Below are positions 15,145 to 19,180 of a DNA stretch of 64,000 nucleotides, piece by piece. Within the stretch, counting starts at the first letter, position 1. The number at the start of each line of letters is the position of its first letter. The position numbers were made by a program, and so were the translations under genes. The stretch is taken from positions 62,001-126,000 of the forward strand of contig JAVKFU010000020.1 in NCBI GenBank assembly GCA_040223695.1, in the 5' to 3' direction. Source of the stretch: Deltaproteobacteria bacterium (GTDB lineage: Bacteria; Desulfobacterota_D; UBA1144; Nemesobacterales; UBA2774). The notes below the pieces were generated by a model. It was given only the letters and a program-made list of their open reading frames with translations, was not told the DNA's origin and made no database searches.

Positions 15145-15759
15145 ATGCCCGAAAATAATATTAAACTTCTAATAGCATCCAACTCCAAGCTTTTTCTGGA
15201 TGGAATACGGAAGGTCCTGGAGAATGAAGACAATATTGAAATAATAGCGGAAACTTTAAATATAAAAGAATTAAACCGTTTGCTTAAAGATTACAGCCCC
15301 GAAGTCGTATTCATAGATAACAGAGAGTTTAAGCTCAACATCGAAAAACTGCTGCGCTCAAGAATTATAAAGAACAACCAAGTCAGGATTATCCTCTTTA
15401 CACAGGGAAATGCAGAGGGCCAGGATTCACCGAACCTGGTAAACGTAAATCATGAAACGACTACTTCGGAGCTCGTAAGCATAATTAAATGCGGAACCGG
15501 AGAGAAAAAAGACTCGGGCGGCGCGGGGCAGGATAAAATTGAATATCAAAATATTACAAAAATGGAACACAGGATTATAAAATTTATTGCCGCGGGCGAC
15601 AGCAATAAAGAGATAGCCGAGAAGCTCTCGATCAGTGAAAAGACGGTTAAGGCTCACGTATCCAGCATATTTGAAAAACTAAATATTAATAACAGGTATC
15701 AGCTTATGGTGTTCGGGAGGAGAAACAAGAAGAATCTGGAAATGTATGTTCAGGTATGA
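15145..15759 (+). CDS. LuxR/NarL-type regulator with degenerate receiver domain
   Basis: The 204 residues have a receiver-like domain (1-120) and a C-terminal LuxR helix-turn-helix (about 138-195) with GDSNKEIAEKLSISEKTVKA. The acidic Mg-binding pair after strand 1 is replaced (A11-S12-N13 in place of the usual ADD), and the conserved Lys of strand 5 is absent, though an Asp (D58) sits at the phospho-acceptor place. Phosphorylation by a normal kinase is therefore unlikely. AGGAG precedes the ATG. The gene ends inside the end of ugd (10-bp convergent overlap). It sits behind a sigma-54-like promoter, and no histidine kinase is nearby. Confidence 0.85.
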   Translation: MPENNIKLLIASNSKLFLDGIRKVLENEDNIEIIAETLNIKELNRLLKDYSPEVVFIDNREFKLNIEKLLRSRIIKNNQVRIILFTQGNAEGQDSPNLVNVNHETTTSELVSIIKCGTGEKKDSGGAGQDKIEYQNITKMEHRIIKFIAAGDSNKEIAEKLSISEKTVKAHVSSIFEKLNINNRYQLMVFGRRNKKNLEMYVQV

Positions 15760-17054
15760 ATCCCCACACCGTGATATTTAAAACCCGCTTCTTCGAGCTT
15801 TTTCGGATCATAAAGATTTCTGCCGTCAAAGATTACATAATCTTCCATGAGTTCTTTCATTTTGAGAAAGTCCGGCTGTCTGTACTCGCTCCATTCCGTG
15901 CTTATCACAAGGGCGTGCGACCCCTGACAGCTATCGTAATTCGATTCAGCGTAACCGACCTTGTCACCGAAATAGCTCCTCGCGTTATCCATTGCCACCG
16001 GGTCGTGCACCACTACCTGAGCCCCGTGAGAGATAAGCTTGTCGATAATATATAAAGAAGGCGCTTCCCTTATATCGTCCGTCTGGGGTTTGAAAGACAG
16101 TCCCCAGACCCCGACTTTCTTGCCGCCAAGCTCGCCGCCGAAATGATTTTTGATTTTTTCCCAGAATAGCTCTTTCTGTCGAGTGTTCACTTCGTCAGTC
16201 GCTTTGCATACCTTCAAATCATATCCGAGGCCCGAGGCTGTGCTGAGCAGCGCCTTTACGTCCTTGGGGAAGCAGGACCCGCCGTAACCTATGCCGGGGA
16301 ATAGGAAATGACGCCCTATTCTCGAGTCCGAACCTATCGCTACCCTTATCTCCGATATATCAGCTCCTACAAGCTCGCACAGGTTAGCGACGTCGTTCAT
16401 AAACGAAATCCTGGTTGCCAGCATTGCGTTCGCGGTATATTTCGCCAGCTCGGATGATCTGATAGAAACAACGATCGCCCTGTCGCCCGATCTCATGAAG
16501 GCCGAATAAAGCTCCTTCAGTATCCCGCCGACCGCGGGCTTATCGACCCCTATTATCACTCTGTCGGGCTTCATGAAATCCTCGACGGCGGCCCCTTCTT
16601 TTAAAAACTCGGGATTTGACGCCACATCGAACTCCGTGTCGGTAGTTTTCCTGATTTCCTCGCGAATCATCTCTGTTGTTCCCACGGGGACGGTACTCTT
16701 CGTAACCACAATTTTATAGTCATTAAGGTTTTCTCCGATGGACCGGGCGACACTGACCACCGCGTCCATGTTCGCTGAGCCGTCCTGGTTAGGAGGCGTG
16801 CCCACCGCGATGAAAACGATAAAAGAATTTCTTATCGCGGAGCCGATATCGGTCGTAAAATGCAGCCTGGACTCCTTCACGTTCTTCTTTACAATATCCT
16901 CGAGCCCGGGCTCATAAAACGGGATGCGGCCGTTTTTCAGGCTTTCTATTTTTTCCTCGTCTATATCCACGCAAATTACATTATTACCGCTTCCAGCCAG
17001 GCATGCTCCGGTGACCAGTCCTACGTAGCCTGTTCCGATTACGCTCAGATTCAT
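15750..17054 (-). CDS. ugd: UDP-glucose 6-dehydrogenase
   Basis: The 434 residues show the N-terminal NAD site (VIGTGYVGLVTG, 5-16), the central domain and the catalytic cysteine C261 in GIGYGGSCFPKD, plus SNPEFLKEG and the C-terminal GLSFKPQTDDIREAPS. It oxidises UDP-glucose to UDP-glucuronate for polysaccharide or LPS sugars. The start follows AGGAGA. It is a single gene flanked by two LuxR-type regulators, which might control exopolysaccharide production; that link is only positional. No glycosyltransferase genes are adjacent. A GDP-mannose or UDP-ManNAc dehydrogenase is less likely given the motif set. Confidence 0.93.
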   Translation of the reverse strand: MNLSVIGTGYVGLVTGACLAGSGNNVICVDIDEEKIESLKNGRIPFYEPGLEDIVKKNVKESRLHFTTDIGSAIRNSFIVFIAVGTPPNQDGSANMDAVVSVARSIGENLNDYKIVVTKSTVPVGTTEMIREEIRKTTDTEFDVASNPEFLKEGAAVEDFMKPDRVIIGVDKPAVGGILKELYSAFMRSGDRAIVVSIRSSELAKYTANAMLATRISFMNDVANLCELVGADISEIRVAIGSDSRIGRHFLFPGIGYGGSCFPKDVKALLSTASGLGYDLKVCKATDEVNTRQKELFWEKIKNHFGGELGGKKVGVWGLSFKPQTDDIREAPSLYIIDKLISHGAQVVVHDPVAMDNARSYFGDKVGYAESNYDSCQGSHALVISTEWSEYRQPDFLKMKELMEDYVIFDGRNLYDPKKLEEAGFKYHGVGIHT

Positions 17055-17219: not shown

Positions 17220-17903
17220 TTAACTCACCAATCCGTGGCGGAATCCGAACAGGATGAGCTCGGACCTGTTCTTAACCTTGAGCTTTCTGAATACCTTATA
17301 CAGATGAAACTTGACCGTCTTCTCGCTTATATACAGCTCATTCGCGACGTCTTTATTCGTGTAGCCGTTAAGAACCAGTTTTACAATCTTTATTTCGGTT
17401 TCGGTGAGATCGTATATCTCCCCTTTGCCTTTAATCCCCTTTGTCGAATATGTCGTGCCGTCAAGCACCTTGCCCATCAACTTTCTCTCGACCCAAAGCT
17501 CTCCGTTATAGACCGAATTTACGGCTTTTATCAGATGATTCGAATCGGTGTCTTTGACAAGGTAGCCCCTGACGCCGGATCTAATGGCGTTTATGAGCAG
17601 GTTTTCGTTGTAGTCACTATCTATTATTAATATAACCTTCGCTTCCCTGTTCTTTTTCATCAAGCCCAGTATCCTGTTCAGGTTCAGGCCCTTGATTTCC
17701 ACATCGAGAAGCAGGATATCGAAGACCGATTCCTCGCAGGACTGAATCAGGTCAATCAGGTTGGAAACCCTGGAAACGACGTCTATGCTCTGATTCTCTT
17801 CCAGTATCTTTGAAATTCCCTCCCTCAACAACGGGAAATTACACGCCACCGCCGTCTTTATGGATTCGGCATTATTGTTCGAAGCTGCTTTCTGCTGTGA
17901 CAT
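17220..17903 (-). CDS. LuxR/NarL-type response regulator with altered acidic pocket
   Basis: The 227 residues have a receiver domain (about 15-135) with phospho-acceptor D67 (ILLLDVEI) and K117 (GYLVKDT), and a LuxR helix-turn-helix (about 165-222) with GYTNKDVANELYISEKTVKFH. The acidic pair normally at ADDH is replaced by A20-C21-N22, so Mg binding should be impaired although Asp and Lys remain. The HTH closely resembles that of the regulator at 15145 (NKxxAxxLxISEKTVKxH), suggesting paralogues. A strong promoter with an overlapping inverted repeat lies upstream. No histidine kinase is nearby. Confidence 0.88.
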   Translation of the reverse strand: MSQQKAASNNNAESIKTAVACNFPLLREGISKILEENQSIDVVSRVSNLIDLIQSCEESVFDILLLDVEIKGLNLNRILGLMKKNREAKVILIIDSDYNENLLINAIRSGVRGYLVKDTDSNHLIKAVNSVYNGELWVERKLMGKVLDGTTYSTKGIKGKGEIYDLTETEIKIVKLVLNGYTNKDVANELYISEKTVKFHLYKVFRKLKVKNRSELILFGFRHGLVS

Positions 17904-17998
17904 TCCCGTTTGCCCCCCGCCGCATGTAATATGAACAAGGTCGAAAAATCAAATATTCATAGGATGCTGCGAGTCATATTTCATGAGGTTTTAAATAT

Positions 17999-18038
17999 AT
18001 TACAATACCAAAGTTTTAAAATGTCAACATACTTTGGT
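17999..18038 (-). promoter_or_regulatory. Sigma-70 promoter overlapped by an inverted-repeat operator, for the luxR-type gene at 17220
   Basis: On the minus strand a perfect TTGACA (18027-18022) is followed by exactly 17 bases and TGTAAT (18004-17999). A perfect 8-bp inverted repeat ACCAAAGT (18007-18014) / ACTTTGGT (18031-18038) with a 16-base centre brackets the -35 box. One arm is in the spacer, so a bound protein should block polymerase. The predicted leader is about 90 bases. Confidence 0.65.
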
Positions 18039-18076
18039 TAGAAAGCCTGTATCGCGGCGTTCCGAATTGTGAAAAA

Positions 18077-19180
18077 TCATATCTTTCGGCAAAAATTCTT
18101 CCCGGGGCATTGGGTTACAAAACCGTTAAGCTCAAGGGACAACAGAAGAGAGAGAACATTGGATGACTCAAGACCCGTAAGTTTTATAATATTGTCAACA
18201 TGTATCGCTTCTGCGCCCAGAACCGAATACACGGCCTTTTCCTTATCGGAAAGTAAAGGCAGAACCGCCTCCGGGCGCTCGCCGGATTCCCCGCTTTTGA
18301 GATTTTTCAATATCTCGATCTCGCCGAGGACATCATCCACCGTTTCCACAAGCTTGGCGCCTTTCTTAAGAAGCCAGTTAGTACCGCGGCTAAGCTTCCT
18401 GTCTATGTTGCCCGGAACGGCGAATACTTCCTTGTTCTGATCAATCGCGAATGAAGCGCTTATAAGGGAGCCGCTCTTCTCAGATGCCTGAACCACCAGC
18501 ACGCCGAGCGAGATACCGCTTATAATTCTGTTTCTCCGCGGGAAATTCTGGGCAATGGGCGGTGTGCCTATAAGAAATTCCGACAGCAGCGCGCCCTTCT
18601 CGGATATATCCTTGTAAAGCTTTTTGTTCTCAGGCGGATACACTACGTCCAGACCGGAGCCCAGAACCGCGATTGTGCGCCCGCCCCTCTTTAGGGCTTC
18701 TTCCTGAGCAATCGAATCTATTCCCCGGGCCATTCCGCTCACCACGGTGACTCCGAGCGACGCGAGCTCGCCCGCGATTGATTCCGTAACCATCCTTCCG
18801 TATCTGTCGGGGAGTCGCGAACCCACAATCGCGATTGAGACTTGATCCTCGGGAATCATTTCCCCCTTCATGTAGAGAAAAGGCGGCGGGTTATATGTTT
18901 GAATGAGAGGCTTGGGGTAACGGGGATCATTCAGCGGAAGAAACGAAAATCCCGATTTCTTATATTTTTCTAACTCGCTTTCTACCCTATCCCAGTCACT
19001 GAATCCATAAATAGCGTCTACAATCTTTTCTCCTATACCCTCGATGCCTGTCAGCTCTTTCTTTGAGGCCTTAAATACGGATTCGGCGCTATCGAATCTG
19101 GTGAACAGGCTCTTAGTAAGGACGTCGCCCAATCCGTTAACCAAGTTGAGAGCAAGCCAGTATCTCATGTCTCTTTGCAT
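18077..19180 (-). CDS. dprA: DNA-processing protein DprA (Smf)
   Basis: The 367 residues show an N-terminal helix-hairpin-helix region (LTGIEGIGEKIVDAI), the Rossmann DprA core with IVGSRLPDRYG, GMARGIDSIAQEEAL and VLGSGLDVVYPPEN, plus FPRRNRIISGIS and SGSLISASFA, and a C-terminal winged-helix domain. DprA loads RecA on incoming single-stranded DNA in natural transformation and is widespread even where competence is unknown. The start could be 19180 or the in-frame ATG at 19168 (MRYWLALNLV). No other competence gene is in the window. Confidence 0.95.
   Translation of the reverse strand: MQRDMRYWLALNLVNGLGDVLTKSLFTRFDSAESVFKASKKELTGIEGIGEKIVDAIYGFSDWDRVESELEKYKKSGFSFLPLNDPRYPKPLIQTYNPPPFLYMKGEMIPEDQVSIAIVGSRLPDRYGRMVTESIAGELASLGVTVVSGMARGIDSIAQEEALKRGGRTIAVLGSGLDVVYPPENKKLYKDISEKGALLSEFLIGTPPIAQNFPRRNRIISGISLGVLVVQASEKSGSLISASFAIDQNKEVFAVPGNIDRKLSRGTNWLLKKGAKLVETVDDVLGEIEILKNLKSGESGERPEAVLPLLSDKEKAVYSVLGAEAIHVDNIIKLTGLESSNVLSLLLSLELNGFVTQCPGKNFCRKI

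Follow-up and report, generated by a model that had tools for sequence, protein, structure and literature searches.

The receivers of LiaR, VraR, and NarL are phosphorylated, and DosR (DevR) of Mycobacterium has a working receiver and kinases. BldM and WhiI of Streptomyces are NarL/FixJ-type regulators. They are described as orphans among the atypical response regulators, whose pockets usually lack essential residues, and BldM recognizes a short palindromic site (16 bp in its Group I) that is common to several promoters (PMC4125116). By the definitions in PMC12632262, a typical response regulator has five residues (DD, D, T/S, and K), and an atypical response regulator has the receiver fold and lacks any one of the five. 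The same source names VpsT of Vibrio cholerae among the pseudo-receiver regulators and states that the mechanisms that activate these proteins "remain a mystery." VpsT is a FixJ/LuxR/CsgD-type activator of a polysaccharide operon and has a sixth receiver helix for dimerization (PMC3359988).

Here we describe an atypical NarL/FixJ-type regulator, LuxR1, with a pseudo-receiver and a GerE helix-turn-helix (HTH). Its gene lies in a 64-kb stretch of DNA (the window) from a 3.03-Mb genome (G000; 95.6% complete). luxR1 (17220..17903, minus strand) is an ORF of 227 amino acids. As is expected for NarL/FixJ (GerE) regulators, LuxR1 has an N-terminal receiver fold and a C-terminal GerE HTH, both by Pfam (Response_reg, E = 1.2e-11, 45 bits; GerE, E = 1.4e-18, 67 bits) and by its Foldseek matches to LiaR, VraR, and NarL. 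Through the protein family of LuxR1 we found 18 named relatives, and eight of these, including the seven that are listed first, are labeled Candidatus Dadabacteria; the other 10 are labeled Deltaproteobacteria, Thermodesulfobacteria-like names, Proteobacteria, or Bacterium HR37. The host of luxR1 is an uncultured bacterium related to Candidatus Dadabacteria. LuxR1 had matches at E ≤ 0.001 in 31 of the 60 related genomes that we searched. Its own family, f1, comprises five genera (g1, which includes G000, to g5), and clear orthologs (60–100% identity) are present in 15 of the 16 f1 genomes, counting G000. The remaining genome (G007, 59% complete) does not have a clear ortholog and was left out of the 15.

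Upstream of luxR1 and in the same direction is dprA (18077..19180, minus strand), which, as read by eye, adjoins luxR1 across f1 except in most of g2. Downstream and on the same strand is ugd (15750..17054, minus strand), which encodes a UDP-glucose/GDP-mannose dehydrogenase. The gap between luxR1 and ugd is 165 bp and contains none of the window's eight best matrix sites (see below), and the two genes may be co-transcribed. On the other side of ugd is another GerE regulator, LuxR2 (15145..15759, plus strand), with a degenerate N-terminal domain. The GerE domain of LuxR2 is present and its N-terminal part falls below the Pfam receiver model; this part is perhaps a further degenerated receiver. 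The initial annotation of this DNA had remarked that the two regulators have similar HTHs and that the pair flanks ugd. The HTHs are indeed alike (43% identity over 65 residues), and the arrangement is true of G000, but the LuxR2 partner is dispensable, as we found no full-length match to it in the seven g2 genomes, which keep the site described below.

Three loci from another family, f4 (L151–L153), have the gene order dprA, a NusG-like gene, luxR1, a receiver-only gene, and a glmS-like gene, so that dprA is linked to luxR1 there as well, with the NusG-like gene between. The identities of dprA, the NusG-like gene, and the receiver-only gene were confirmed with Pfam, and in L151 a ugd-like gene follows the glmS-like gene. 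In another f4 locus (L150, G028:C45), three copies of the LuxR type lie together with a receiver-only gene and, as read by eye, a NusG-like ORF, in an apparent local expansion.

The promoter of luxR1 has the −35 box TTGACA (18022..18027, minus strand) and, after a 17-bp spacer, the −10 box TGTAAT (17999..18004, minus strand), and transcription would start near 17992. This promoter (18027–17999) had been rated among the best in the window, and, matching 11 of 12 bases, it is one of just three places there that match 11 or more; ten random windows had 0–3 such places. The base that matters most in the −10 box is the A at position 2. TGTAAT lacks this A, so the luxR1 promoter is not listed by a scan tool that demands it. 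Around the −35 box is a perfect 8-bp inverted repeat, ACCAAAGT-N16-ACTTTGGT (18007–18038), as the initial annotation had reported. By itself the repeat is at chance level: with loops of 0–30, the window has 46 perfect 8-bp inverted repeats, and five random windows have 33, 37, 49, 30, and 46. Outside evidence was therefore required, and it is conservation that gives the repeat significance. A genome-wide search, as had been proposed, found that this is the sole exact copy (spacer 10–22) in the 3.03-Mb genome. The single copy suggested a private operator, but that idea was superseded once we adopted a looser view, with sites of 14 bp.

The arms of the repeat are better described as the cores of two opposite 14-bp sites than as half-sites of one operator. 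The aligned copies form a quasi-palindrome with the consensus CATACT-WW-AGTATG, and AC at positions 4–5 and GT at positions 10–11 are kept in nearly all of the 25 aligned sites (some of which were turned to the other strand). We rejected the half-site view because AC and GT are symmetric about the center of the 14-mer and because single copies stand alone elsewhere. Site B (CTAACCAAAGTATG; 18028..18041, minus strand) lies directly upstream of the −35 box, and site C (AAAACTTTGGTATT; 18004..18017, minus strand) lies 24 bp from B, in the spacer between the −35 and −10 boxes. The 8-bp core of this word is identical to the core, ACTWWAGT, of the DosR box TTSGGGACTWWAGTCCCSAA, but the flanks are CAT/ATG instead of GGG/CCC (PMC2275270). 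LuxR1 is also related to DosR in sequence (DevR chain 3c3w, E = 3.6e-15), although the targets of DosR are unlike those that we predict for LuxR1.

Conservation in relatives had been set as the test of the repeat, and the motif is conserved. The word ACYAAAGTATG is found upstream of luxR1 in all 15 f1 orthologs, and in all 15 site B abuts the −35 position, so each ortholog has a conserved site before its own gene, as expected of an autoregulator. Of the 15 orthologs, 11 have an additional site, A, 22–24 bp farther upstream than B; G000 is not among them. Site C is at +24 in all six genomes of g1, g3, and g4 (with 7–8 of the 8 arm bases). In the seven g2 genomes it is below threshold (6.5; 3–6 of 8 arm matches), and a TATGGT- or TGTGGT-like half remains at its position in six of them. 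Both g5 genomes have a site at +44 (44 bp downstream of B) in place of C. TTGACA is present at luxR1 in exactly the six g1, g3, and g4 genomes that have C inside the core promoter, and in all six the −10 box lacks A at position 2. The −35 boxes of g2 are mostly poor (GCTCAT, GCAAGC, TAGAAT, or GTCTAA), and B persists there. Weaker intergenic sites (8.7–13.4) are found in f4, upstream of both the NusG-like and the receiver-only gene; at the luxR locus of G034, a distance of 23 bp separates the sites in each of these two places. The f4 match that scores highest for the word, CAAACTAAAGTATG (17.7), is inside the NusG-like coding sequence (L151:5395, L152:4677, and L153:4079), where it probably reflects conserved codons.

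To scan the window, we used a matrix of 32 hand-picked luxR1-promoter sites from 14 other genomes. C ranked first (15.2), B ranked second (13.7), and the third place scored just 9.6, but this ranking depends on shared ancestry, as the training promoters are orthologous, and the training sites were picked with an earlier matrix that had included G000. A 14-mer model had no match in the window at E ≤ 10, not even B or C; this model is too short for E-values, which is why we used the matrix scan instead.

We also searched the 16 f1 genomes with a 14-mer model trained on luxR1 and exopolysaccharide (EPS) sites (150 candidates scored per genome, E ≤ 6). The matches listed include 22 distinct sites: nine at luxR1, four at the EPS operon, four at a small gene, two at a BtrH_N gene, and three elsewhere. 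Hence 19 of the 22 sites among the matches listed fall at these four genes, and outside the two training classes, 6 of the 9 sites among the matches listed are at the small gene or the BtrH_N gene. For 5 of the 16 genomes, there was no site among the matches listed. The word itself has little power. There are 40 exact copies of ATACTWWAGTAT, compared to 23 for the reversed control, so lone copies mean little and are mostly background. A loose pattern with one mismatch had 39 matches in G000, compared to 148 for the reversed control, so it is unfit to define a regulon. We rejected TACTAAAGTATG at G000:C7:11923, which is inside a zinc-dehydrogenase ORF, and set aside further exact 12-mers that fell within ORFs or in one genome only.

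The EPS site (CATACTAAAGTATT at G000:C20:143745) is on the same contig as luxR1, about 18 kb past the right end of the window. It precedes an operon whose first gene is of unknown function and is followed by Wza/Poly_export, Wzc-like kinase, TPR, and Wzy_C genes. Among 42 genomes searched, gene 1 has orthologs in 6 of the 16 f1 genomes and in one f4 genome. All six f1 orthologs are preceded by a site (score 18.9–19.6), and five of the six sites begin precisely 70 bp upstream of the −35 box in a TTGACT-17-TATAMT promoter; some of these loci have weaker copies of the site at +32 and +55. We were unable to match the sixth locus (G004) to this promoter layout, and the f4 ortholog (G022) is without a good site. 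We infer the link between luxR1 and exopolysaccharide from gene content. We also considered the type-2 wza paralogs of f1 (our grouping, ~41–43% identity) and rejected them: with the first matrix, five of seven loci lack a site of at least 10, and the other two score 10.0.

The BtrH_N/DUF4872 gene was found in 10 of the 16 f1 genomes. It has a site in all five cases from g1 and g3 (score 15.5–19.0), and in none of the five from g2 does the site score above 10.6. EPS gene 1 was also not detected in g2, which indicates that the regulon differs among genera. Right before the start of the BtrH_N/DUF4872 gene (L146:2600-3810, G000:C13; L174–L183) are conserved TATGGTA-like and TTTATA-like stretches, so its promoter looks like a leaderless one or one with a very short leader.

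The remaining target is a new small gene (G000:C9:142113-142388, in L131 and L194; homologs in L189–L201). It first came to our notice in five genomes through an exact 12-mer located beyond an SDR gene (22–31 bp from its 3' end in four genomes and 201 bp in G000). Downstream of the 12-mer are a stretch that resembles a promoter, another that is conserved, and an intrinsic terminator; the pairing of the terminator stem survives changes on both sides in some pairs of genomes. A model restricted to the 3' part (R2) identified the small gene in 13 of the 16 f1 genomes, eight of them new, with E-values no higher than 1.2e-9. Outside f1, R2 had a single weak match in 26 genomes. Of the six weak matches (L202–L207), the three that we checked for a site (L202–L204) do not have one. 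In all 13 small genes, a site that scores 12.5 or higher stands precisely at −60 or −74 relative to the −35 box. For the first five genes this is partly due to selection, but the eight new ones were found independently of the word. Each of these eight has a site that reaches 12.5 and lies precisely at −60, several have a second at −74, and none of 1097 control stretches from the same loci reached that.

In 8 of the 13 cases, from g1, g3, g4, and g5, the small gene contains an ORF of 26–34 residues (depending on the start codon), and the end of the ORF is a conserved peptide, membrane-like and about 26 residues long, [KN][TS]YG[FY]-x-D[LI]AL... The pairwise differences at the three codon positions number 200, 87, and 382, which is the pattern of real coding sequence. 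We did not find the peptide ORF in the five g2 members. A 19-base CU-rich stretch, TTGCCTTTTGCTTCTCTTA, is unchanged in all 13 small genes, including those of g2. The small gene has no match in Pfam (E ≤ 1), NCBIfam (E ≤ 0.01), or Rfam (E ≤ 1, five loci).

Based on these comparisons of sequence, LuxR1 is, with good probability, an autoregulator that activates its own gene through B and A, brakes it through C, and activates the EPS operon, the small gene, and the BtrH_N gene in trans. A dimer of LuxR1 would bind each 14-bp dyad, CATACT-WW-AGTATG (CATACTAAAGTATG). At low levels, LuxR1 would probably activate its own gene through B (and A), and at high levels it would probably block it through C. 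In G000, where A is missing, B and C would make up the pair that was earlier read as an inverted repeat. In trans, LuxR1 would most likely activate the operon for EPS export and polymerization (Wza-, Wzc-, TPR-, and Wzy-like proteins), and most likely the small gene and the BtrH_N/DUF4872 gene as well. The sign of regulation is read from site positions alone. A site just upstream of the −35 box is in a position typical of activators. That B is always kept, even with the poor −35 boxes of g2, supports activation; the −10 box TGTAAT, without A at position 2, suggests a promoter that needs help; and braking is supported by C, which lies within the core promoter only in the six TTGACA genomes.

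The initial annotation took the repeat to imply repression. This stands in part, as C would block the core promoter, but the position of B suits an activator and B persists in g2. Could LuxR1 act by negative autoregulation only, with the arms forming one operator that, when occupied, masks the −35 box and turns the promoter off? G000 itself is compatible with this, since it lacks A and just B and C remain, flanking the −35 box. The other TTGACA genomes of g1, g3, and g4 likewise have C, with 7–8 of 8 arm bases, and the strong g5 site lies downstream of B. However, pure repression does not account for the retention of B in g2, where the −35 box is often poor and C is weak, or for the sites at the EPS operon and the small gene, which are upstream of the −35 box and off the core promoter. 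A −10 box that seems to need help does not fit it well either. Pure repression is unlikely, although it deserves to be taken seriously.

Activation through B with a brake at C assumes that LuxR1 is the protein that binds. LuxR1 very likely binds the word at its own promoter, judging from the genomes compared. In G013 (90% complete) and G015 (83% complete), luxR1 is the sole GerE gene that we detected and B is intact, which makes self-binding the best reading. The suggestion that the protein acts on its own promoter is thus well supported by comparison (these two genomes, and B in 15 of 15 orthologs), and binding is deduced from it. It is improbable that another regulator, such as LuxR2 or a non-GerE protein, binds the sites and that luxR1 is merely a target. 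Room for such a binder comes from the other GerE genes in 14 of the 16 genomes (G000 has five GerE matches) and from the incompleteness of G013 and G015; also, a regulator from another family could bind. But the sites are present at the f4 luxR locus too, and LuxR2 in particular is a poor candidate. Matches that span most of LuxR2 are present in 8 of the 16 f1 genomes, always on the same contig as luxR1. We found no full-length LuxR2 in G007 or in the seven g2 genomes, all of which keep B, and we rejected it as the binder for the latter reason. There is no site of at least 8 in the 400 bp upstream of LuxR2 in G000. Among the eight LuxR2 loci, the upstream DNA is shorter than 30 bp in three, and a weak site (9.9) lies 400 bp upstream in one.

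If LuxR1 is the regulator, its receiver is not of the usual kind. The initial annotation was correct that LuxR1 has ACN in place of ADD (the first acidic residue is Cys and the second is Asn) and that it retains the Asp and the Lys (Asp67 and Lys117), but it overlooked a further loss: the Thr/Ser position is Ile94. We aligned 21 sequences of the LuxR1 family (alignment A1). This alignment leaves out matches with under 40% identity and the close copies from f4 (G026:C2, 64%; G034:C5, 56%; and G028:C45, 55% and 51%); the G026:C2 copy is in alignment A2 (L089). Neither position of the acidic pair is acidic in any of the 21 sequences, and none has Thr or Ser at the T/S position, whereas the Asp is present in 19 and the Lys in 20. 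The first acidic position is Cys in 18 of 21 and Ser, Phe, or Val in the other three, and the position after it varies freely. By the definitions given above, LuxR1 is an atypical response regulator, with a pseudo-receiver, and not a typical (phosphorylatable) one. In contrast to LiaR, VraR, and NarL, LuxR1 lacks the acidic pair and the Thr/Ser. From these substitutions, metal binding and normal phosphorylation seem unlikely for LuxR1, but because the Asp and Lys are mostly kept, it could still be phosphorylated. LuxR1 is probably an orphan, phosphorylation-independent NarL/FixJ-type regulator. The idea that it may need another signal fits with a pocket that is degenerate in all 21 sequences; the signal itself is presumed.

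One candidate for the signal is redox state, with the receiver as a thiol switch and Cys21 (codon at 17841–17843) as the sensor. Redox-regulated pseudo-receivers that use other cysteines have been described (PMC12632262). The predominance of Cys where true receivers have an acidic residue, next to a position that varies freely, would fit such a switch, but the three sequences with Ser, Phe, or Val do not, and we would be somewhat surprised if it proved right.

VpsT-type regulators bear the c-di-GMP motif W[FLM][TS]R, and W..R at that position is widespread in the regulator family. LuxR1 might be a c-di-GMP-gated matrix regulator of the VpsT/CsgD type, given that VpsT, too, activates a polysaccharide operon, that VpsT is among both the sequence and the fold matches of LuxR1, and that Trp137 and Arg140 are invariant in all 21 sequences. 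But all 21 have W-[VATL]-[ED]-R, which is not the VpsT motif, and NarL and VraR/LiaR outscore VpsT. In a Foldseek search with the AlphaFold2 model of LuxR1 (mean pLDDT 80.7, pTM 0.59), LiaR and VraR were the best matches, NarL ranked 6, and VpsT ranked 22. LiaR/VraR and NarL are the best matches both by fold and by sequence, along almost all of the protein. With regard to a sixth receiver helix, residues 140–147 of the model form a helix after the receiver, beside a low-confidence linker. Gating by c-di-GMP is quite improbable.

Finally, a chance repeat near a chance promoter would agree with the random-level count of 46 perfect repeats in the window, but we give it almost no credence, as the sites are conserved in 15 orthologs and reused at three other genes, and the matrix ranking across 64 kb and the small-gene control (0/1097) contradict it.

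With LuxR1 as an autoregulator with a small regulon, what might the small gene do? It could have a dual function, with both a peptide and a base-pairing RNA (TTGCCTTTTGCTTCTCTTA and the terminator), and in g2 with the RNA only; a Cys-gated LuxR1 would then switch on this RNA along with exopolysaccharide. This is speculative, and we rather doubt it. A ranking of potential base-pairing targets among 72 start regions was uninformative (luxR1 was 6th, and EPS gene 1, by a non-preferred start, was 58th).

Like BldM and WhiI, LuxR1 appears to be an orphan atypical response regulator, and like BldM it has a short palindromic site that is common to several promoters. The site sequence differs (TCACcCgnncGgGTGA for LuxR1 versus CATACTWWAGTATG), and the targets described for BldM and WhiI are development genes, unlike those of LuxR1; we found no evidence here for a heterodimer. 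In the literature that we searched, no paper joins "Dadabacteria" and "LuxR," so regulation in Candidatus Dadabacteria appears to be little explored, and for "Dadabacteria" and "exopolysaccharide" none of the titles found treats the LuxR1 regulon. The kind of regulator, an atypical member of the NarL/FixJ type, is known; the putative operator and the small predicted regulon in a little-studied lineage are new. The small gene is the part that least resembles anything in the libraries that we searched. The DNA word is now defined, and with its four predicted targets and its conserved layout it offers a system that can be tested. Through its predicted ties with polymer export and a new small gene, a regulator whose pocket is dead would provide a readout for what switches pseudo-receivers.
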